Below, piece by piece: positions 42,106-53,243 of a DNA stretch of 53,243 nt. The position numbers and the translations under genes are program-made. Below the pieces are notes generated by a model. That model was not told the DNA's origin. It did no database searches and saw nothing but the letters and a program-made list of their open reading frames with translations. The stretch lies in the NCBI GenBank assembly GCA_902559815.1, contig CACEJE010000006.1, positions 10,001-63,243 on the forward strand, written 5' to 3'. Each line of letters begins with the position of its first letter. Position 1 is the stretch's first letter. Origin of the DNA: an uncultured Thiothrix sp. (GTDB lineage: Bacteria; Pseudomonadota; Gammaproteobacteria; Poriferisulfidales; GCA-002705445).

Positions 42106-42646
42106 AAAATGGGAGCTATTAAAAAGAACTATTATGTATGATGGTAGCCCTTATATTAAAATTTATATGGATAAAATAAAGCTTCCAAATGGTAAGATTG
42201 TTGATGATTACCATAGAATTGAAGTTAATGATGCCGTTATGCTTCTTGTTGAAAATAATAAAGGCCAGCTTCTTGTATATAACGAATATAGGCATGGTAT
42301 TGGTGATTTAAGTTATACATTTCCAGCTGGTGGCATAGAAGAAAACGAAAGCCTTGAAGATTGCTGCAAAAGGGAATTATTAGAAGAAATGGGTTATAAT
42401 TTTAATTCATATAAATTATTAAAAAAATATACAGTTAGTGGCAGTTATAGATTTTCTGAGTTAAATATTATTTATATTAGCGATATAAATAAAATAGCGC
42501 CACCAAAAAGTATTGATATTGAACAGCCGGAACCTATGTGGCTCACAAAAAATCAAGTGATAGAGGCTATTGAGAAAAACAAGTTCCAAGGTATGACGTA
42601 TGTAACAACAGCTTTATTATGGTTATTTTATAATGAAAAAAAATAA
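42086..42646 (+). CDS. Nudix hydrolase (ADP-sugar pyrophosphatase-like)
   Basis: Nudix box GGIEENESLEDCCKRELLEEMGY. Confidence 0.88.
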   Translation: MQKMKNKKWELLKRTIMYDGSPYIKIYMDKIKLPNGKIVDDYHRIEVNDAVMLLVENNKGQLLVYNEYRHGIGDLSYTFPAGGIEENESLEDCCKRELLEEMGYNFNSYKLLKKYTVSGSYRFSELNIIYISDINKIAPPKSIDIEQPEPMWLTKNQVIEAIEKNKFQGMTYVTTALLWLFYNEKK

Positions 42647-43556
42647 AATTTGGATTACAGGCTCAGGAATGGTTGGTAAAGCTTTAATTAAAAAATTATC
42701 AACTAATAAAAAATATCAAATACTTAGATCAAGTAAAAATAAACTTGATCAAATAAATCAAACAAAAACTGATAGCTGGATCAAAAAAAATAGACCAGAT
42801 ACTATTATAATAAGCTCAGCACTTGTAGGAGGCATACAACTTAACTCAAGTATACCCGCTGATTTTTTGTATCAAAACTCAATGATGTATTTAAATATAA
42901 TAAATTCCGCGCATAACTATGGTTGTAAAAAAATTATTTTTCTAGGAGCAAGTTGCATGTATCCTAAATTAGGTAAACAACCGTTCAAAGAGAATTTAAT
43001 ACTCAATGGTAAAATTGAAGAAACAAATGAAGGCTACGGAATATCTAAAATTCTTGGTGTTAAATTTTTAGAACTAATTAACAAACAATATTTAACAAAT
43101 CATATATCTATTATACCAGCTGCTAGCTATGGGCCTAATGATTGCTATGATGAAAATAAAAATCATGTTATACCTGCGCTAATCAATAAATTTCATACAG
43201 CAAAAATAAAAAAAAGAAACCAAGTAAATATATGGGGCTCAGGAAATGTAAAGCGCGAATTTATTCATGTTGATGATATGGCTTCTGGAATTATACATAT
43301 TATCGAAAACTATAGAGAAAATTCACCCATAAATTTAGGAACAGGTGAAGAATTTACTATTAAAAAATTAGCGAACATAATTAAAAAAGTAGTAAATTAT
43401 AAAGGCAAAATTGAATTTGACAAATCAAAACCAGATGGAATAAAAAGAAAAATCTTAGATAATTCTAGGTTAAAAAAACTTGGTTGGAAACCAAATATTT
43501 CTATTGAAGAAGGAATAAAAAATACTTATCAAGATTTTTTAAAAAATAAAATCTAA
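42633..43556 (+). CDS. GDP-L-fucose synthase-like SDR epimerase/reductase
   Basis: ITGSGMVGKALIKKL, FLGASCMYPKLGKQPFKEN, ETNEGYGISKILG (YxxxK). Confidence 0.83.
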   Translation: MKKNKIWITGSGMVGKALIKKLSTNKKYQILRSSKNKLDQINQTKTDSWIKKNRPDTIIISSALVGGIQLNSSIPADFLYQNSMMYLNIINSAHNYGCKKIIFLGASCMYPKLGKQPFKENLILNGKIEETNEGYGISKILGVKFLELINKQYLTNHISIIPAASYGPNDCYDENKNHVIPALINKFHTAKIKKRNQVNIWGSGNVKREFIHVDDMASGIIHIIENYRENSPINLGTGEEFTIKKLANIIKKVVNYKGKIEFDKSKPDGIKRKILDNSRLKKLGWKPNISIEEGIKNTYQDFLKNKI

Positions 43557-44836: not shown

Positions 44837-45406
44837 ATGAAAGTAACAATTAAAGACTATCTAACTTCAGTCGCACAGAATTTTGAAGAATTAAAACAAA
44901 ATAGTTCTGCTATTGAAAATGCAGCTAGTGTAGTTATTACAGCACTAAATAATAAAAATAAAATTATTTTTTGTGGTAATGGTGGTTCTGCAGCTGATTC
45001 TCAACACCTCGCAGCAGAATTAATGGGTAGATACAAAGTTGATAGATCTCCTTTACCAGCGATTGCTGTAACTGTAGATACCTCTGCCTTAACAGCAATA
45101 GCAAATGACTATGGTTATGATAATGTATTTTCAAGGCAGATAAATGGATTAGGCACTCAAGGTGATGTCCTTTTTGCATTATCAACTAGTGGCAAAAGTG
45201 AAAGTATTTTGGGCGCAATAAAGACTGCCAAAAATATTGGCATGAAGATTATTAGCTTAACTGGTTCGTCTATAAATGAAATGAATGACTTGTCTGACGT
45301 ATGTATAAATGTACCTAGCAAGGAAACCAATCATATACAAGAGATGCACATTACTATTGGTCATCTAATCTGTGGATTAGTAGAAGATGAGCTTTTCAAA
45401 AAATAA
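44837..45406 (+). CDS. SIS-domain phosphoheptose isomerase (GmhA-like)
   Basis: IIFCGNGGSAADSQHLAAELMGRYK, ALSTSGKSESILGAI, HITIGHLICGLVE. Confidence 0.87.
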   Translation: MKVTIKDYLTSVAQNFEELKQNSSAIENAASVVITALNNKNKIIFCGNGGSAADSQHLAAELMGRYKVDRSPLPAIAVTVDTSALTAIANDYGYDNVFSRQINGLGTQGDVLFALSTSGKSESILGAIKTAKNIGMKIISLTGSSINEMNDLSDVCINVPSKETNHIQEMHITIGHLICGLVEDELFKK

Positions 45407-45440: not shown

Positions 45441-46496
45441 TTACCAAAATTTTTTTGATACTAATCTATTATAAAAATCTTTTAAACCATCAAAGCATTT
45501 ATATCTGTAATTTAAATACCAACATATATTAAAAAGCAAAGAATAATTTTTAAATTTAAATCCTGAACCAGCATAATTTAAATAATAAAATTTTCTATAA
45601 AAGTTAGTTATATAATACTTAAAATTATTTACATTGAAATTTAATTTTAAAAAAATTTTATTATCTTTATATAGTGTATAGTTAGAATTATTAGAAATAT
45701 ACGATATATCATTATGTTTTCTCTGCAGTATATTTAAAATTAATAACATAGCATTTTTTTTTGCATTTTTTTGCGTAATTGGAGAAACCAAAATATCCCA
45801 TGCTTTTAGCTGACCGTAAAATCTTTCGTATTCATCAATTTCACTTTTTGCTTCAGGATATTGACCTTCAAAATCTAAATCATGCAAACTAATATCTCTT
45901 TTAAAATGAGAGCTAGAAAAATTATCATATATCATCATATAGTAAGAGATTGATTGTTGAAAAGCATCAGCTGAGAAGACAGGACTCCATTCATTTCCAC
46001 AAATTTCAATCCACTTTCTCGTTGTAAAAACAATATTGCTTGGAGCAAAACAGGATTCCCAATAATCAATATAATTTCTATTATTATTTGCGGAACAAGT
46101 TATTCTAAAAATATCATCTTTATAAAAATTTATATATTTTTCAAGAATTTTATCCCAATTTTTTGTTTTGATTTGCATTCGATCTGTTAAACAAGAAATA
46201 AAATATGATTTTTTATTTGATAACTGCTGCGCCATATTATTATGAACATGCCCATTAAAGTAACCAGGTGGTGACTCAATATATTTGATTTTAAAACTTC
46301 TATTCTTAATTTGATCTTTGACAAAATCAATCATAATTTTATCGTTATAATTAATATTAATTATGACTTCAAAATTTTTTGGATTTGATGCGTTATTTTC
46401 AAATGAGTTCAAAAACTCATTTAAATTACTTTTATTTTTTGAAGGAACAAGTATGGATAATAATATATTTTCTTTATTCATTTCTATTTTTTTCAA
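45441..46496 (-). CDS. Divergent family 2-like glycosyltransferase
   Basis: LLSILVPSKNKSNLNEFLNSFENN...FEVIININYND N-terminal GT-A pattern; middle and C-terminus divergent. Confidence 0.6.
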   Translation of the reverse strand: MKKIEMNKENILLSILVPSKNKSNLNEFLNSFENNASNPKNFEVIININYNDKIMIDFVKDQIKNRSFKIKYIESPPGYFNGHVHNNMAQQLSNKKSYFISCLTDRMQIKTKNWDKILEKYINFYKDDIFRITCSANNNRNYIDYWESCFAPSNIVFTTRKWIEICGNEWSPVFSADAFQQSISYYMMIYDNFSSSHFKRDISLHDLDFEGQYPEAKSEIDEYERFYGQLKAWDILVSPITQKNAKKNAMLLILNILQRKHNDISYISNNSNYTLYKDNKIFLKLNFNVNNFKYYITNFYRKFYYLNYAGSGFKFKNYSLLFNICWYLNYRYKCFDGLKDFYNRLVSKKFW

Positions 46497-47292
46497 GACT
46501 TATCACTTTTCTTTTAGCATTTTTCCCTGGTATAAAAGATTCACCGTCACTTATATAAGATACAGAAAGCAAAGGTCTTGATATATTTGAATTATTTGCA
46601 TAAGAGCCGTGAATACAATTACCATTTAAAACTAATAAATCACCTTTATTAAAACTACAATCAACTTTTTCAAATTGTTTCAAATATTTCTCTGGTATTT
46701 TATTTCCAGGATTTGAATTTTTATTTTCTCTGTAAGAAATATGTGCTTCAGCATTAAACAAGCCTTTTTTATGAGATCCAGGATATATATAAAGCGATCC
46801 GTTATCTTTATTAGCATCTTTGAGAAAAAAATTTGTTGTTAAATATTGCGTGGTAAATCCATTTTTTAAAATAGAATTATTTTGTGGGTAAATGTTATCC
46901 TGATGAGGATTCCATGCTTGGCTTGCGTATCGTGTATTTGCTTCCTTAAAAAGCATTTGTGACATCAAGCCAACAATTTTACTGTCTTGTAATTCCTCTA
47001 AAATACTCACAGCAGTTTTGTTAGCCATAATTTCAAAAGTTGCTTGAGCTGTTTTTCTGCATTCCTCTACATGTTCAACTCTTTCTGATAAACTCAATCC
47101 GCTAACAATATTTTCTAAACTTTGAGCTACTAAAAAGTCAAACCTATCAGGATTCATTATTGCAGCAAAGTCACTATTTGCATGTTTTTTTATTTGCGAG
47201 AGATAATTATCACATTCATTTTCTGGCAAAACATCTTCGACTATTAAATAGCCGTTTTCCTTATAAAATGTATTTTGTTCTTTAGTAATCAT
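46474..47292 (-). CDS. Phytanoyl-CoA dioxygenase (PhyH) family Fe(II)/2-oxoglutarate oxygenase
   Basis: ENGYLIVEDVLPENECD, NPHQDNIYP (HxD), LNGNCIHGSYANNSNISRPLLSVSY (distal His and Arg). Confidence 0.83.
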   Translation of the reverse strand: MITKEQNTFYKENGYLIVEDVLPENECDNYLSQIKKHANSDFAAIMNPDRFDFLVAQSLENIVSGLSLSERVEHVEECRKTAQATFEIMANKTAVSILEELQDSKIVGLMSQMLFKEANTRYASQAWNPHQDNIYPQNNSILKNGFTTQYLTTNFFLKDANKDNGSLYIYPGSHKKGLFNAEAHISYRENKNSNPGNKIPEKYLKQFEKVDCSFNKGDLLVLNGNCIHGSYANNSNISRPLLSVSYISDGESFIPGKNAKRKVISLEKNRNE

Positions 47293-47932
47293 TTATTCTG
47301 CCGTCTAAAATTAATTCTTCTTCATTTGATATCATTGAGTCATATATTTTATTTACAACTACATTTACATCCATTGCATTTTCTCTTTCTGGCCAAGTTT
47401 TAATATTTGTAGGATAAACATCTAATATATTATAAGGATTATCTTCCATTTTTAAACTATTTGAAAATCCTCGCAAACCCCATTTACTAGCTGCATATAA
47501 TGTTCTATTTTTTTTTGCCTCAATTCCTACCATTGAGTTTATATTAACTACATATTTTAAGTTGCCTGATAATTTGTTTATAATTTTTATTGGCGCAATC
47601 AAATTTACAACTATCATAGAATCTATTATGTCATCAGTTATTTTAGAAAATGATAAATTTGGACATATAATACCAGCATTGTTAATAAGAATTTTTACAT
47701 TCTCACTTGAAGAATACTCGCATAAATTAGCTAAATCTTTTTCATTATTTAAATCTGCAATTATATATTCTGCTTTATTACCGCTTCTAATAATATTTAT
47801 CTTTAAGGACTCAAGTTTTTCTTTATCTCTGCCATGCAATATTATTTCATGTCCCTTATTAGCAAAAAATTTTGCTAGATGCATTCCAAGACCACCACTT
47901 GATCCGGTAATTAATACTTTATTTAATGACAT
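47282..47932 (-). CDS. Short-chain dehydrogenase/reductase
   Basis: ITGSSGGLGMHLAKFFANKG, NNAGI, LYAASKWGLRGFS (YxxxK). Confidence 0.88.
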   Translation of the reverse strand: MSLNKVLITGSSGGLGMHLAKFFANKGHEIILHGRDKEKLESLKINIIRSGNKAEYIIADLNNEKDLANLCEYSSSENVKILINNAGIICPNLSFSKITDDIIDSMIVVNLIAPIKIINKLSGNLKYVVNINSMVGIEAKKNRTLYAASKWGLRGFSNSLKMEDNPYNILDVYPTNIKTWPERENAMDVNVVVNKIYDSMISNEEELILDGRINDY

Positions 47933-48160: not shown

Positions 48161-48640
48161 ATGTCAAAAGTATATTGGATTACAGGAATTTCGGGTGTTG
48201 GAAAAACAACATTTTCAAATATTCTTAAAAAAGAATTAGATAGGAGAAATATTAATAGCATTATAATTGACGGAGATCAAATAAGAAAAATATTAAAAAA
48301 ACAAAACGAATTTTCTAAAGAAAGTAGGTTTGAAATTGCAATGATTTATTCAAGACTAGCAGAGCTGTTTTCTAAACAAAATATAACTGTAATAGTCTCA
48401 ACCATTTCTTTAATCAAAGAAATTCATTCATGGAATAGAAAAAATTTAAATAACTATGTAGAAATATTAATAAAAAGAGATATGAATAAAATCTTAGAAA
48501 GTGATTCAAGAGATATTTATAATAAAAACAACGTAGTTGGCAAATCAATTGATGCTGAATACCCAAAACAGCCTGATTTTACAATAGAAAATATTAGTAT
48601 AGATAAAATTGAAAGTTATATCAAAAATAATATATTATAA
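48161..48640 (+). CDS. APS-kinase-like P-loop kinase; predicted cytidine diphosphoramidate kinase (Cj1415-like)
   Basis: VYWITGISGVGKTTFSNILKKEL (P-loop), IIIDGDQIRKIL, VIVSTISLIKEIHSWNRKNLNNYVEILI; function assigned by neighbourhood. Confidence 0.75.
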   Translation: MSKVYWITGISGVGKTTFSNILKKELDRRNINSIIIDGDQIRKILKKQNEFSKESRFEIAMIYSRLAELFSKQNITVIVSTISLIKEIHSWNRKNLNNYVEILIKRDMNKILESDSRDIYNKNNVVGKSIDAEYPKQPDFTIENISIDKIESYIKNNIL

Positions 48641-48643
48641 AGT

Positions 48644-49462
48644 TTAATTTAAAATAGAATTTGTAATTATAAACTCATCAATGCGAAAGTCATTATTTGA
48701 AATGTTTTTTAAATATTTTTTTTTCAAAAAATATTCGTAAAGATTATCACCTTTTGTATTTAAAACATTTAAACCTGCATTTTTTGATATATGAAAACCT
48801 GCTGCAACATCCCATAATTTTATATTTTCCTTCCTTATATAAACATCAGCTTGACTAAGTGCTACATAACAGAATTTTATTGAACTACTTACATGCATAA
48901 AGTCGTATGAAAAATTATATTTCGATAAAAAAGATTTTATTTCTATTATTTCTTTCTCTCTTTTTGTCGTGATAATTTTTATACGTTTATCCAGATTAGT
49001 TATAATTTTATTTTTAATTTGAGTTTTATTGATATTTCCATTATCTTTAGTAACTTTATAAGTATTATTAATATCTGCATACAACATCAATTCCAAATTT
49101 GGAGCATAAATTATACTAATGCATGGCGCTTGATCATAAATTAACGTGAGATTTATTGTATAAAAATCTTTTTTCTCAATAAATGAATTTGTTCCATCAA
49201 TAGGATCAATGATAAAAAAATTATTACTTTGAATTGCTTGATTTTGATTTTTAAATTCATCCTCTTCTGATAAAACTTTTATTGTTGGAAATTTTTTTTT
49301 CAAGAACTTCCTAATATAGTCATTTATTTTAATATCAGCATCGCTGACTTTGGTTTTATCATTTTTTATATTATATGGTATATCTGTCATAGCTTGATAC
49401 TTCTTTGCTATTTCGCCAGACTCAAAAAACATATTAATAAAATCATCAATGTTAAATATCAT
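48644..49462 (-). CDS. CysQ-like 3'(2'),5'-bisphosphate nucleotidase / inositol monophosphatase family
   Basis: VLSEEDE, FIIDPIDGTNSFIEKKDFYTINLTLI, SSSIKFCYVALSQADVYIRKENIKLWDVAAG; start trimmed to MIFNIDDF (track start 49519 overlaps the upstream gene by 68 nt). Confidence 0.83.
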   Translation of the reverse strand: MIFNIDDFINMFFESGEIAKKYQAMTDIPYNIKNDKTKVSDADIKINDYIRKFLKKKFPTIKVLSEEDEFKNQNQAIQSNNFFIIDPIDGTNSFIEKKDFYTINLTLIYDQAPCISIIYAPNLELMLYADINNTYKVTKDNGNINKTQIKNKIITNLDKRIKIITTKREKEIIEIKSFLSKYNFSYDFMHVSSSIKFCYVALSQADVYIRKENIKLWDVAAGFHISKNAGLNVLNTKGDNLYEYFLKKKYLKNISNNDFRIDEFIITNSILN

Positions 49463-50174
49463 ATTCATTCTCATAAAGCATGATATCTTTAGGTGTATCA
49501 ACTTCTCCCCAAACCTCACTATTTTGAACTACTTTAATCTTTATTTTTTCTTTTATAGCAATATTTAACAACTGTGTCATATCTAGGTTATCAAAATTAA
49601 ATTTACACAATAGCTTATTTATTGTTTTCCAACCATCGCGTGTTATTTTTAATAACCCCATATACTGTCCCTGTATATTTTTTATTTCACTCGGTTTTTC
49701 GCCAATGCCTAGCAAAAAATTATTTTCATCAATTTTAAAAGTTTCCAAATCATCTAAAGGATTTTCAAATCTTTTAGTCCACAAATTTTTAAAATTAATA
49801 TCATATGCTACAACTATGTCATTAGGATCACTAATTAAATCTTTTATAATTTTTTCACCAAAAAAAATATCTCCATATGAGATTATACTATCTCTTTTAT
49901 TCAATATTTCTCTACTAGAATATAATGAAGACACCATATTTGTGTTTTCCCATTTATGGTTTTCAAAATATTTATTAATTCTATAATCTTGTATTTGATC
50001 CTTAAGATATCCTCTAACAATTGCTATTTTTGAGATTAAATTTATTGAATTGTATATATCTAGCTGTCTAGAAAGCAGTGATTTATCATTTATTTCAATT
50101 AAGCATTTTGGCATTGTATCTGTTAGATTTTTTAATCTTGAGCCACGGCCAGCCGCTAAGATAATAGCATTCAT
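49452..50174 (-). CDS. Nucleotidyltransferase; predicted CTP:phosphoglutamine cytidylyltransferase (Cj1416-like)
   Basis: MNAIILAAGRGSRLKNLTDTMPKCLIEIN; SYGDIFF; position between GATase and CysQ-like genes. Confidence 0.82.
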   Translation of the reverse strand: MNAIILAAGRGSRLKNLTDTMPKCLIEINDKSLLSRQLDIYNSINLISKIAIVRGYLKDQIQDYRINKYFENHKWENTNMVSSLYSSREILNKRDSIISYGDIFFGEKIIKDLISDPNDIVVAYDINFKNLWTKRFENPLDDLETFKIDENNFLLGIGEKPSEIKNIQGQYMGLLKITRDGWKTINKLLCKFNFDNLDMTQLLNIAIKEKIKIKVVQNSEVWGEVDTPKDIMLYENEYDI

Positions 50175-50758
50175 ACAAAAAATTCCCCAAATAACTTAAT
50201 GTCAAAATTATTAAATGGATCATTTCTTTCTGGATGCCACATTATACCTTTAATTTTATGTTCTTTATGTGATATAGATTTAATAATATTGTCTGATGAG
50301 CGTGAAGTAACCACTAAGTTATCAGCTGTATCTTCCGTTCCATAATTATGAAAACTATTAATAGTTATTTTATTATTTTGATAATTTATTTCAAATTTAC
50401 TGTTAACATGTCCATTAATTTTTTTAAGTTTAATTTTAAAATATGATTGTATTTGTTGCATTCCTCTACACACTCCAATAAGAGGAATATTATTAGATAA
50501 CGATTTAGATATTAATAATTTTTCTATTTCATCTCTTGGGCTTGCACCACCTAAGCTTGATATTAGGCCACCTCCAGTAAGTAAAATCCCTACATATTTT
50601 TCTTCATCCACGTATTGTTTAGCAAGATTAATATTATTTGGTATTAAAATAGGAATGAGATTGCACTTTTCAAGAAAATAAATCCATCTTATATCAAGAC
50701 TATCTCGGTACTCATTTTCAAATAAATCTTCTCTTTGAGTGACAATGATTTTTTTCAT
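50171..50758 (-). CDS. Class I glutamine amidotransferase-like hydrolase; predicted gamma-glutamyl-CDP-amidate hydrolase (Cj1417-like)
   Basis: LLTGGGLI, PLIGVCRGMQQIQ (nucleophile Cys), GIMWHPERNDPF (His-Pro-Glu); 4-nt overlap with nucleotidyltransferase gene. Confidence 0.82.
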   Translation of the reverse strand: MKKIIVTQREDLFENEYRDSLDIRWIYFLEKCNLIPILIPNNINLAKQYVDEEKYVGILLTGGGLISSLGGASPRDEIEKLLISKSLSNNIPLIGVCRGMQQIQSYFKIKLKKINGHVNSKFEINYQNNKITINSFHNYGTEDTADNLVVTSRSSDNIIKSISHKEHKIKGIMWHPERNDPFNNFDIKLFGEFFV

Positions 50759-50776
50759 AAGATATAATAATTTTTT

Positions 50777-53116
50777 TTAATTGATAATTATAATATTCTC
50801 TTCAATCGCATCAATTTTAATTTTTTTTGCATTAATTAATTTATCATACAATAAACCAACACCAATTACCGAAGGAATACCCAACTCAGCTGATCTTATA
50901 GCCATATGTGAATTTGATCCACCATATTTAGTTATAAACCCAGATATCTTATGTGAAAAAATCCAATCATAACCAGGATCTGCATTTTCAATCAAAACAA
51001 CCTTATTTTTAATACTAGCACTTTTTTTATTATCTAAAACAATAACATCTGCGATAACACTTTTTTGTGTAATAAAATTTGGTTTTGATTCATTTTCATA
51101 ATAAAAAAATATATCATTTGTGCTAGATATTAGATTAGGAAGATTAATTAATTTAGTATAACCAAATCTTTTTTTTCTTCTTTGAATTGATGCATTAATA
51201 ATTTTTTTTGGATCACTTATAATGCTATTAAGTGACATTATTGACCCTATATGAGTGTATGAAGAATCATCTTCTGATATATCAAGTTTTCTTGAAATAT
51301 CTTTATAAATATTTAATATTGAGCTAACGTTTTTTGTAAATATAAATTTTGAATATTCTCTAGCTTCTATTGCTTCCTTGATAAAAGTTATTAGTTCGTT
51401 TGCATTGATTCTTAATTTTGTTTTTTCTAAGAAACTGTCTAAATTTTTGATAGATTCTTTAGAAAATTTAAAATATTTTTTTTTATTATTTGTATTTTTT
51501 ATTTCTTTAAATTTAAAATATGAATTATAATATTCGCTATAAGATTTAGATAAGATATCATATGTCCCAGGTCGTAAATGTCCATATTTTTTTAAAAATT
51601 GGTTTTTAGATAATTTATTAATGTCTGTTACCAATAGACCACTAATAGTATTTAAAGATTCTAAGAATAAATTATATTCAGTTTTACTTATAATATTTTT
51701 ATTAACAAAAGATTTTAACATTTCTATAGCAATGAAACCTGCTCTTGCGAGACCAGCAAATGGTAGTGTTCCGTATCTTTTACAGTCCTCTATTAGCCAG
51801 TAAATTTTTCCGTAATCATCTAATTTACTATTCATTATTATTTGATACTTTTCTTCTAATATATCAATTTTTTTAATATCACTTTTCCATAAACCATTGT
51901 TTGTATCTATTATGTTGTTTGTTAGTGATAAAAGAGATTTCTTGATTTTTTTTATTTCTGTTTTAGTAAAATTAAAATCTTCAAGGATTTTTAATTTTTT
52001 ATCTGTATCTAATGTGTAACATGAGTAAATTATTTCAAATTCTATTTTGTCATGAAGCTCAGGATTTTTTTCCAGTTTATTTAAATAATAATCAACTAAT
52101 TTTTCTGCAATACCATCATCAAGAAGTTTTGGGATAAATGAGTTAAAGCTTACTCTTACATCAATATAAGGTATTCCTTCAAATTCAACTATAAGAGGAA
52201 AACTTCTAAGATTCTTATACCCATAATTATCTCTTTGGTACGCCCAAATTGAGTTTGTAATTAGTTCTCTATAAAGTGAAATAGATAAAGGTCTTGGCTT
52301 ACTCCCAATTATCTCTGCAGGGTTCCAATCTGGCATTAGACCATAAATTGCTTTTTTCCCATATAAGTATGGTTGTCTTTTAAACCAACTGCTAACTCTT
52401 TTATTTATATTAACTAAAATATCGTAATGCTCACTATCTGAAATCTTTCTCAAATAGGAAATTACTAATGGTCTAACTTGGGTAAGGTATATTTTTCCAG
52501 ATTTTGAAATAACATATTCAATATCTAATGCATCATTATCAAAAATTTCCTCAAGTTCTTTACTTAGATCAATTAATTTTCCTAAACTCCCCTTAATTTT
52601 TTTATTATGAAGCTTATGATAACAAAATAATTTATTTTTTTTACCAATCCCAGAAGTGATTGTGTCAGTTCTTCCACTAGTATCATCATAATTTATCTTT
52701 ATATAAGGTGTATTATATTTTATATCTCTAGTAAATATAACACCTGAGCTTTTAACATTTTTAATGAATGGCTGAATGAAAACTTCATCCTCTGGGCTAA
52801 GATCATCATAACTATTAAAAATTTTTCTAACAGCAGTATTAATTTCATTTTCACCTTTAATATTTGAAACTGTTAAAAACTTTCCTGCTTTTGAGTGTAT
52901 TTTTTGATCTTCTAATTTAGTTGAGCTTCTAGCTATCAATAATGAATCTTCCCATTTTTTATTTTTAATACTTCTCAATATAGTATTAGAATCTTTTTTA
53001 TATTGCATATAAGTAATTACAACTTGATCTAAAACTTCTGCATTTTTTAGTTTTCCTTTTAGATTTAAAAGATTTCTTGATTTTGTTGAGAATATTATTT
53101 TTTTTGAAGTCTTCAA
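50777..53116 (-). CDS. PEP-synthase/PPDK-like phosphotransferase; predicted L-glutamine kinase (Cj1418-like)
   Basis: N-terminal ATP-binding domain (LIARSSTKLEDQKIHSKAGKFLTV, IQPFIKNVKSSGVIFTRD, ITLTQVRPL-type), central GLMPDWNPAEIIGSKPRPLSISLYRELI, C-terminal phospho-His domain GGSNSHMAIRSAELGIPSVIGVG; no PEP-binding barrel follows. Confidence 0.82.
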   Translation of the reverse strand: MKTSKKIIFSTKSRNLLNLKGKLKNAEVLDQVVITYMQYKKDSNTILRSIKNKKWEDSLLIARSSTKLEDQKIHSKAGKFLTVSNIKGENEINTAVRKIFNSYDDLSPEDEVFIQPFIKNVKSSGVIFTRDIKYNTPYIKINYDDTSGRTDTITSGIGKKNKLFCYHKLHNKKIKGSLGKLIDLSKELEEIFDNDALDIEYVISKSGKIYLTQVRPLVISYLRKISDSEHYDILVNINKRVSSWFKRQPYLYGKKAIYGLMPDWNPAEIIGSKPRPLSISLYRELITNSIWAYQRDNYGYKNLRSFPLIVEFEGIPYIDVRVSFNSFIPKLLDDGIAEKLVDYYLNKLEKNPELHDKIEFEIIYSCYTLDTDKKLKILEDFNFTKTEIKKIKKSLLSLTNNIIDTNNGLWKSDIKKIDILEEKYQIIMNSKLDDYGKIYWLIEDCKRYGTLPFAGLARAGFIAIEMLKSFVNKNIISKTEYNLFLESLNTISGLLVTDINKLSKNQFLKKYGHLRPGTYDILSKSYSEYYNSYFKFKEIKNTNNKKKYFKFSKESIKNLDSFLEKTKLRINANELITFIKEAIEAREYSKFIFTKNVSSILNIYKDISRKLDISEDDSSYTHIGSIMSLNSIISDPKKIINASIQRRKKRFGYTKLINLPNLISSTNDIFFYYENESKPNFITQKSVIADVIVLDNKKSASIKNKVVLIENADPGYDWIFSHKISGFITKYGGSNSHMAIRSAELGIPSVIGVGLLYDKLINAKKIKIDAIEENIIIIN

Positions 53117-53187
53117 GTTACAAATATTATAAAAATTAGAATTATTTGTATGATATAATTTATTTTTTATAATAACAAATTAAATAC

Positions 53188-53243
53188 ATGAAAACTGACT
53201 GGGATTATTCCGAAAGAGCTGCTACTTATGACAAAAGAGCTGA
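53188..53243 (+). CDS. Start of a SAM-methyltransferase-like gene, truncated by window end
   Basis: MKTDWDYSERAATYDKRA...; open to the window edge; divergent from the glutamine-kinase-like gene with a 71-nt gap. Only 18 codons are visible. Confidence 0.45.
   Translation, partial: MKTDWDYSERAATYDKRA

Follow-up and report, generated by a model that had tools for sequence, protein, structure and literature searches.

A predicted phosphoramidate-activation module with a CysQ-type nucleotidase in a polysaccharide region of an uncultured Thiothrix sp.

Background

In Campylobacter jejuni, Cj1415 to Cj1418 are, in that order, CDP-amidate kinase, phosphoglutamine cytidylyltransferase, gamma-glutamyl-CDP-amidate hydrolase and glutamine kinase; Cj1421 and Cj1422 are transferases. 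PAPS-dependent sulfation relies on ATP sulfurylase, APS kinase, a PAPS sulfotransferase and CysQ. PMC6429109, PMC9561416 and PMC11924219 give accounts of the O-methyl phosphoramidate (MeOPN) of the C. jejuni capsule and of the pathway that makes it; the late steps are still named as future work by a 2025 paper (PMC12409886). A lipooligosaccharide phosphoramide is on record for Xanthomonas campestris (Silipo et al. 2005, as cited in PMC8042644 and PMC3655273), and our literature search found no description of its biosynthesis.

Results

Layout of the cluster

The window, that is, the whole stretch of 53,243 nucleotides that was analysed, has its right edge at the end of its contig (G000:C6, 63,243 bp), and the cluster found there is therefore incomplete. 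It comprises the following genes:

48161-48640, plus strand: P-loop kinase of the APS-kinase superfamily, predicted CDP-amidate 3'-kinase, 159 aa (APS_kinase, E 7e-22)
48644-49519, minus strand: CysQ-type 3'(2'),5'-bisphosphate nucleotidase, inositol monophosphatase superfamily, fourth gene of the operon (TIGR01331)
49452-50174, minus strand: nucleotidyltransferase, predicted CTP:phosphoglutamine cytidylyltransferase, LicC-like, 240 aa (NTP_transf_3)
50171-50758, minus strand: class-I amidotransferase (GATase), predicted gamma-glutamyl-CDP-amidate hydrolase, 195 aa (Peptidase_C26/GATase; NF045546)
50777-53116, minus strand: glutamine-kinase-family protein, 779 aa, TTG start, first gene of the operon (NF004508/PRK05849)
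53188-53243, plus strand: start of a class-I SAM methyltransferase gene (MKTDWDYSERAATYDKRA...), oriented divergently to the kinase and truncated where the contig stops (short BLAST)

From 53116 down to 48644, the glutamine-kinase-family, GATase, cytidylyltransferase and CysQ-type genes form a tight operon with overlapping genes (4 bp between cytidylyltransferase and GATase), and the small kinase lies on the strand opposite to these four. The initial annotation had recognized four of the ORFs, namely the two kinases, the amidotransferase and the nucleotidyltransferase, and both their coordinates and their families agree with the ORF list and the profile searches. The CysQ-like gene was missing from it; the likely true ATG of this gene is at about 49462-49474. 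No RNA families were found in the window.

Enzymes of the predicted activation pathway

The large kinase joins a PPDK_N ATP-binding domain to a PEP-utilizer phospho-His domain, and its nearest solved structures, 5fbs and 2ols, are filed as PEP synthases. Its score of 928.7 bits against NF004508/PRK05849 (cut-off 501) is nevertheless to be set against at most 56 bits for PEP synthase models (cut-offs 598 to 1063) and 28 bits for the rifampin phosphotransferase model NF041857 (cut-off 999). With 929 bits in its own family and tens of bits elsewhere, these NCBIfam scores place it among neither of the latter two groups, and the likeness to glutamine kinase drawn in the initial annotation survives. 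In the family alignment, S736-H737 of the GGxxSHM phospho-His motif are among the invariant columns. Relatives, about 31 to 55% identical to the window's kinase, number at least 565 in GTDB genomes, span more than a dozen phyla and mostly keep the same partners; no Campylobacter plasmid was among the matches of a plasmid search with the kinase.

For the GATase, the best named NCBIfam model is NF045546 ('gamma-glutamyl-CDP-amidate hydrolase'), at 117 bits, under the cut-off of 250. Relatives in Campylobacterota likewise fall below this cut-off (147 and 190 bits), and the model ranks first among named models for every member scanned. The Cys and His-Pro-Glu motifs noted earlier correspond to the predicted catalytic residues C97, H175 and E177, whose alignment columns show a conservation of 93% or more among 90 sequences. 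The nucleotidyltransferase belongs to the expected superfamily but matches no specific family model in the libraries searched; its closest solved protein is a CTP user, the CTP:phosphocholine cytidylyltransferase 1jyk (E 4e-11).

It could be that the true substrate is a different amide or amine, leading to some other P-N or P-O metabolite, and that the likeness to Campylobacter is one of fold only. The sub-threshold GATase score, the breadth of the kinase family and the second nucleotidyltransferase-like domain present in several relatives leave room for this, but the four families remain associated from phylum to phylum, their catalytic residues conserved, and gamma-glutamyl-CDP-amidate hydrolase is the constant best name for the GATase, so that we consider a different substrate improbable.

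The small kinase scores 137.9 bits against NF004041/PRK05541 (cut-off 127) and 82 bits against the true APS kinase model TIGR00455, below its cut-off of 138.7. A true APS kinase is encoded separately, on contig 2 of the genome (172 bits with the same model). In a tree of 73 cluster kinases, 20 reference APS kinases and the genome's own APS kinase, the small kinase sits on a long branch and groups with the 73 'APS kinases' that adjoin glutamine kinases, outside the true set, whose support is 99%. At most diagnostic columns it carries the cluster-type residue and not that of APS kinases. On the separate clade and the residue comparison we reject a true APS kinase (CysC), and we predict a CDP-amidate kinase candidate distinct from APS kinase, its substrate being inferred. 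In nine loci the small kinase is fused to the glutamine kinase.

Recurrence of the partners

Related loci were picked by similarity to the window's kinase, so their frequencies are not unbiased, and from the clusters of neighbouring ORFs those lacking a protein-family match were dropped. Among 93 glutamine-kinase loci, the GATase is present in 89, the NTP transferase in 88 to 89 and the APS-kinase-like gene in 75, a recurrence that puts the grouping far beyond chance. All four core genes occur in 56 of the 64 well-flanked loci, which belong to many phyla. Cultured carriers of the cluster include Chitinibacter tainanensis and Andreprevotia lacus. Two Campylobacterota other than Campylobacter (L089 and L105) have the same gene set. 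The proposed correspondence with Cj1415-Cj1418 rests on this last observation and on the NCBIfam models, no direct protein comparison being involved.

The last 56 bases of the window are the beginning of a methyltransferase, whose reading frame opens 71 bp beyond the kinase start. One methyltransferase family accounts for 29 of the 30 short-BLAST matches of this fragment among 5450 ORFs, and it occurs at 63 of the 93 kinase loci. In the well-flanked set, 57 loci have the small kinase and seven lack it; a methyltransferase is present in 49 of the former and none of the latter (Fisher p = 1e-5), a sulfotransferase-fold gene in 33 and none (p = 0.004). Both are thus confined to loci with a CDP-amidate-kinase candidate. 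The sulfotransferase-fold proteins of these relatives find their matches among solved PAPS-dependent sulfotransferases, with both the Arg and the Ser of the 3'-phosphate site retained.

No phosphoramidate transferase was found in the available sequence of this genome, where a PF00685 search was without match. The sole sulfotransferase-like gene seen is on contig 2, beside the true APS kinase. The edge of contig 2 was considered as the missing upstream part of the cluster, and rejected: it starts with unrelated genes, and its kinase is the true APS kinase.

Genomic surroundings

The region next to the cluster contains the following genes, and also a sugar aminotransferase:

42633-43556, plus strand: GDP-L-fucose-synthase-like sugar-nucleotide enzyme (NF047922, 385 bits, cut-off 500)
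44837-45406, plus strand: sedoheptulose-7-phosphate isomerase-like (GmhA) protein (TIGR00441, 201.8 bits, cut-off 209.45)
45441-46496, minus strand: glycosyltransferase-like protein without Pfam match; relatives in congener G001 and near the L044 kinase cluster
46474-47292, minus strand: PhyH-type dioxygenase of the flanking region (family match; comparison with G001)
47282-47932, minus strand: short-chain dehydrogenase of the polysaccharide region that flanks the cluster, 65% identical to its G001 counterpart

The initial annotation had called the gene content gammaproteobacterial, and the gene orders queA-tgt-yajC-secD-secF and iscRSUA-hscBA-fdx are consistent with this. A search of the assembly for 16S rRNA found none. 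Could the cluster be a chance assembly of unrelated neighbours, or a contaminating contig end? It lies at the end of the contig, its G+C content is 24.5% against 27.3% for the window, and a glutamine kinase was found in none of 10 congeners. Such an artefact is contradicted by synteny, as the flanking polysaccharide genes are 45 to 65% identical to those of G001; moreover, secDF, tgt, queA and isc on the same contig are housekeeping genes, and more than 50 loci share the gene set. We give this explanation hardly any credence.

That the cluster serves a surface glycan is an inference from the neighbouring genes. Alternatively, its product may be a secreted or intracellular phosphoramidate small molecule. 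Some clusters elsewhere, such as that on an Agrobacterium vitis plasmid (L039), stand beside exporters or CDP-alcohol phosphotransferases, not polysaccharide genes, and on a C. taiwanensis plasmid the kinase occurs alone, its partners missing. In the window, however, the neighbours are glycosyltransferases, the GmhA-like and GDP-fucose-synthase-like enzymes and the aminotransferase, and the same locus in G001 is a polysaccharide region that carries a sulfation module (sulfotransferase-like gene, APS kinase, CysQ). A small molecule is accordingly judged unlikely here, and decoration of a polysaccharide remains the preferred reading.

The CysQ-type nucleotidase

The CysQ-like protein falls within the CysQ clade (98%), pairs with that of L040 (99%), conserves the metal-site residues E86, D105, D108 and D237, and has 3b8b as its closest solved CysQ. 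Its substrate is not fixed, as it reaches 149 bits with TIGR01331 (bisphos_cysQ), under the equivalog cut-off of 228.8.

The question arises as to whether this enzyme belongs to the pathway at all. The core pathway may be real and CysQ a sulfation enzyme that hydrolyses PAP and sits in the operon by happenstance. It is the only CysQ copy of a genome that also has an ATP sulfurylase (contig 13) and the true APS kinase beside the sulfotransferase-like gene, and may for that reason serve PAP from sulfation. Furthermore, in G001, whose genome lacks a glutamine kinase, the orthologue (47% identical) comes immediately after a sulfotransferase-like gene and an APS kinase. Against happenstance, CysQ recurs inside the glutamine-kinase operons of L040, L051, L069 and L118; together with the window these occupy at least three places in the CysQ tree, and in all four loci the kinase neighbouring CysQ is of the cluster type. 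The reaction logic also demands removal of 3'-phosphorylated CMP, and one enzyme could serve both pools. We regard a purely sulfation-related CysQ as possible, though the less likely option, and retain a role in the phosphoramidate pathway. Sulfate reduction was also considered as the reason for CysQ and discarded, the PAPS reductase/CysD family being absent. ATP sulfurylase is present in all congeners.

Discussion

We propose that the locus is a phosphoramidate-activation module for a surface polysaccharide, with a PAPS-like pathway including methylation, transfer and recycling by CysQ. In the absence of biochemistry we hold this with good, not full, confidence. Family assignments, model scores and the small-kinase tree support the phosphoramidate interpretation put forward initially. 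The analysis establishes which genes are present and to which families they belong, that their catalytic residues are conserved, how the operon is laid out, where the proteins fall in the trees and that the partnership recurs; the reactions without exception, the methyl group, the acceptor and what CysQ acts on are inferred.

The 779-aa enzyme would use ATP to phosphorylate the amide nitrogen of glutamine via a phospho-histidine, and the resulting phosphoglutamine would be coupled with CTP by the cytidylyltransferase. The amidotransferase would strip off the glutamyl group to give CDP-amidate, onto which the APS-kinase-like enzyme may place a 3'-phosphate, making 3'-phospho-CDP-amidate, a cytidine analogue of PAPS. 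The cut-off methyltransferase could supply the O-methyl group, either ahead of transfer or following it. Transfer of the (methyl)phosphoramidate to a sugar would fall to a sulfotransferase-fold enzyme of the kind present in related clusters (none was found here). The released 3'-phospho-CMP would then be hydrolysed by the CysQ-like enzyme, as PAP is by CysQ after sulfation.

A broader hypothesis, on which we are evenly divided, is that a cytidine version of PAPS metabolism is widespread in bacteria. The 3'-phospho-CDP-(methyl)amidate would be the common donor, sulfotransferase-fold enzymes would be phosphoramidate transferases reading its 3'-phosphate, CysQ-type enzymes would recycle 3'-phospho-CMP, and within one genus the same polysaccharide locus would be equipped with a sulfate module in some members and a phosphoramidate module in others.

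In a 2022 review the glutamine kinase is termed 'C. jejuni-specific' (PMC9561416), in contrast with the 565 or more kinase-family stretches seen here. Given that close relatives of the gene set occur in more than a dozen phyla, the tag is probably widespread; if so, phosphoramidate is likely a common glycan decoration and not a Campylobacter oddity. Many phages recognise phosphoramidate in Campylobacter (PMC9561416), and it may therefore bear on phage-host contact in other bacteria. The partners that recur, namely the methyltransferase, the sulfotransferase-fold proteins and CysQ, are testable candidates for the late steps.

Among known systems, rifampin phosphotransferase and PEP synthase share with the window's glutamine kinase the ATP-binding and phospho-His domains, but their models remain at about 28 to 56 bits where NF004508 gives 929. 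The X. campestris phosphoramide is alike in being a substituent of a Gram-negative surface glycan outside Campylobacter. PAPS-dependent sulfation resembles the predicted pathway in its nucleotide-activated group, its 3'-phosphate added by an APS-kinase-superfamily enzyme, its sulfotransferase-fold proteins (in related clusters) and its CysQ clearing a 3',5'-bisphosphate; it differs in that the nucleotide predicted here is cytidine, the group is phosphoramidate and the small kinase is not a member of the APS kinase clade. In the MeOPN system of C. jejuni, the same four enzyme families are grouped in a polysaccharide region with a methyltransferase alongside, and the kinase, GATase and cytidylyltransferase genes are likewise consecutive. 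Unlike it, the window's operon, in a different organism, includes a CysQ-type nucleotidase and has its small kinase on the other strand. What is new is thus a better-stocked variant, with CysQ, of the known phosphoramidate pathway.

Gene set and predicted operon

All four ORFs named in the initial annotation are present as described, and Pfam and NCBIfam place them in the same families. A CysQ-type gene, flanked by those of the nucleotidyltransferase and the small kinase, had been overlooked. The features are as follows:

48161-48640, + strand: small kinase of the APS-kinase superfamily, predicted CDP-amidate 3'-kinase
48644-49519, - strand (operon strand): CysQ-type nucleotidase (149 bits with TIGR01331, whose equivalog cut-off of 228.8 it does not reach; CysQ 3b8b is the closest solved protein)
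49452-50174, - strand: nucleotidyltransferase (NTP transferase)
50171-50758, - strand: amidotransferase (GATase)
50777-53116, - strand: large kinase (glutamine-kinase family)
from 53188, cut by the contig end, + strand (opposite to the operon): start of a class-I methyltransferase, reading MKTDWDYSERAATYDKRA

The strongest match among the four ORFs is that of the large kinase, which scores 928.7 bits with NF004508 (PRK05849; cut-off 501) and 56 bits or less with the models of PEP synthase, rifampin phosphotransferase and pyruvate phosphate dikinase. The best model for the amidotransferase is gamma-glutamyl-CDP-amidate hydrolase (NF045546, 117 bits, below the cut-off of 250), and the solved structure nearest to the nucleotidyltransferase is a CTP:phosphocholine cytidylyltransferase. 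Since 18 bp separate the end of the large kinase gene from the amidotransferase gene, the latter overlaps the nucleotidyltransferase gene by 4 bp, and this in turn overlaps the CysQ gene, all on the same strand, these four genes look like a single operon.

The genome (906,583 bp in 34 contigs) is about 80% complete; the window spans positions 10001-63243 of its contig 6, and the right edge coincides with the end of that contig. The truncated methyltransferase reading, used as a short query against the 5450 ORFs of 93 related loci, gave 30 matches, 29 of them in one class-I methyltransferase family; the window therefore contains the start of a methyltransferase gene.

Small kinase and true APS kinases

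A tree of 97 sequences groups the window's small kinase with 73 cluster kinases, and a separate set with 99% support unites 20 reference APS kinases, the genome's own contig 2 copy and the APS kinase part of a bifunctional L044 protein. With 172 bits the contig 2 copy exceeds the equivalog cut-off for APS kinases (138.7); the window's small kinase, at 82 bits, falls below it, and in the columns that separate the two groups it mostly carries the cluster residue. Its exact neighbours are unsure because of its long branch.

On contig 2 (L142:1443-3085) the true APS kinase adjoins a 377-aa protein that has a sulfotransferase-type P-loop and no Pfam match. ATP sulfurylase is also present in this genome; no member of the PAPS reductase/CysD family was found in it.

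Recurring neighbours and possible transfer routes

At the 93 kinase loci, the GATase recurs 89 times, the NTP transferase 88 to 89 times and the small kinase 75 times; the methyltransferase family is found at 63, mostly adjoining the kinase, and two groups of sulfotransferase-fold proteins at 32 and 11. Nine loci (L026, L047, L052, L053, L057, L061, L064, L082 and L094) encode the two kinases as one protein, with the small kinase N-terminal to the glutamine kinase. Other architectures were seen: glutamine kinase ORFs of 1026-1073 aa with an N-terminally fused second nucleotidyltransferase-like domain (L027, L028, L036, L037), and, in L193, a different, cytidylyltransferase-like N-terminus in its place.

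Among 64 well-flanked loci (flanks of at least 5 kb and 3 kb), 56 have the complete core of four genes, and in 48 the methyltransferase is present as well. The methyltransferase accompanies the small kinase in 49 of 57 loci and is absent from the seven without it (p = 1e-5); the sulfotransferase-fold genes do so in 33 of 57 versus 0 of 7 (p = 0.004), so that both occur only where the small kinase does. In a second set of nine loci with longer flanks, taken from the class sample regardless of similarity and outside the 64, the methyltransferase was again absent from the three loci that lack the small kinase, and among the other six it was clear in three and weak in two; alone, this set is not significant by a strict count (p = 0.46) and borderline by a loose one (p = 0.05). 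Most of the loci were chosen for their similarity and do not count as independent, which makes the p-values indicative only.

The two sulfotransferase-like groups have weak to moderate PF00685/PF13469 matches, and CurM, tyrosylprotein and cytosolic sulfotransferases are hit by a profile built from one of them. A nine-sequence alignment has an invariant Arg and an invariant Ser, at the spacing that they have in the 3'-phosphate site of sulfotransferases. Sulfotransferases read the 3'-phosphate of PAPS, and by analogy we infer that these proteins read that of 3'-phospho-CDP-amidate. We found no paper joining MeOPN and sulfotransferases in the literature searched. The wider PAPS-like reading of the pathway we regard as evenly balanced.

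Where the small kinase is missing, other candidate transferases appear, CDP-glycerol glycerophosphotransferase-like in Vibrio L036 and in L188 and L190, and CDP-alcohol phosphotransferase-like in A. vitis (L039). These could use CDP-amidate directly, and the kinase-GATase-NTP trios of these four loci suggest a second transfer route straight from it.

Distribution and the congener locus

The glutamine kinase was found in none of ten congeners and, in a sample of 369 genomes spanning the class, in 10, the window's own among them. A scan of GTDB representative genomes gave at least 565 relatives, the best 80 of which come from Pseudomonadota, Bacillota, Acidobacteriota, Nitrospinota, Nitrospirota, Bacteroidota, Balneolota, Verrucomicrobiota, Campylobacterota, Omnitrophota, Ignavibacteriota, Thermodesulfobacteriota, Melainabacteria and a Bacteriovorax. 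The gene is also carried on plasmids of Azospirillum, Vibrio, Agrobacterium and others. On a Cupriavidus taiwanensis plasmid (L038), an 810 aa member of the family has nif genes and transposases close by, and no GATase or NTP transferase nearby. In the phage collection, a 9.5-kb record from human faeces labelled Bacteriophage sp. (MT837632.1), which may be a mislabelled bacterial contig, also carries the gene.

The closest kinase among the matches listed (55% identity) is that of an alphaproteobacterial MAG, L040, where the order kinase-GATase-NTP-CysQ is as in the window and the small kinase is on the opposite strand. The window, L040, L051, L069 and L118 all have CysQ within the kinase operon; in L044 it is located close to that operon. 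In the CysQ tree, the window's copy groups with those of L040 and of congener G001 (99%), and those of L051/L069 and of L118 fall at other places within the clade; this scatter suggests about three separate recruitments into kinase operons.

G001, in which no glutamine kinase was found, shares the polysaccharide region with the window (identities of 65% for the SDR, 62% for GmhA, 48% for a glycosyltransferase and 45% for PhyH). There it holds three consecutive genes, for a sulfotransferase-like protein, a true APS kinase and CysQ (L184:7500-10063). Of two members of the genus, one thus carries a sulfation module and the other a phosphoramidate module in the same locus, an apparent swap, with CysQ common to both. 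The window's CysQ is the only copy in its genome and may serve PAP too, because ATP sulfurylase, a true APS kinase and a sulfotransferase-like gene are present. A 351-aa glycosyltransferase-like protein (45441-46496, - strand) without Pfam or NCBIfam match is related to proteins of G001 and, close to the cluster, of L044.

Comparison with known pathways

Reviews describe C. jejuni as the source of MeOPN and the glutamine kinase (PMC6429109, PMC9561416), the kinase being termed C. jejuni-specific in the latter; the family may already have been reported from outside Campylobacter. Recent papers attribute the synthesis and transfer of MeOPN to the whole gene group (PMC11924219, PMC12409886), and a phosphoramide is also known on the lipooligosaccharide of Xanthomonas campestris (PMC8042644, PMC3655273).

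What the initial annotation observed is confirmed, and its interpretation as a MeOPN-type cluster is supported as far as families, trees and gene partnership go; a core phosphoramidate pathway is very probably encoded in the window. Without direct comparison of the proteins, the predicted module represents the same kind of pathway as that of C. jejuni, from which it differs by the addition of CysQ.
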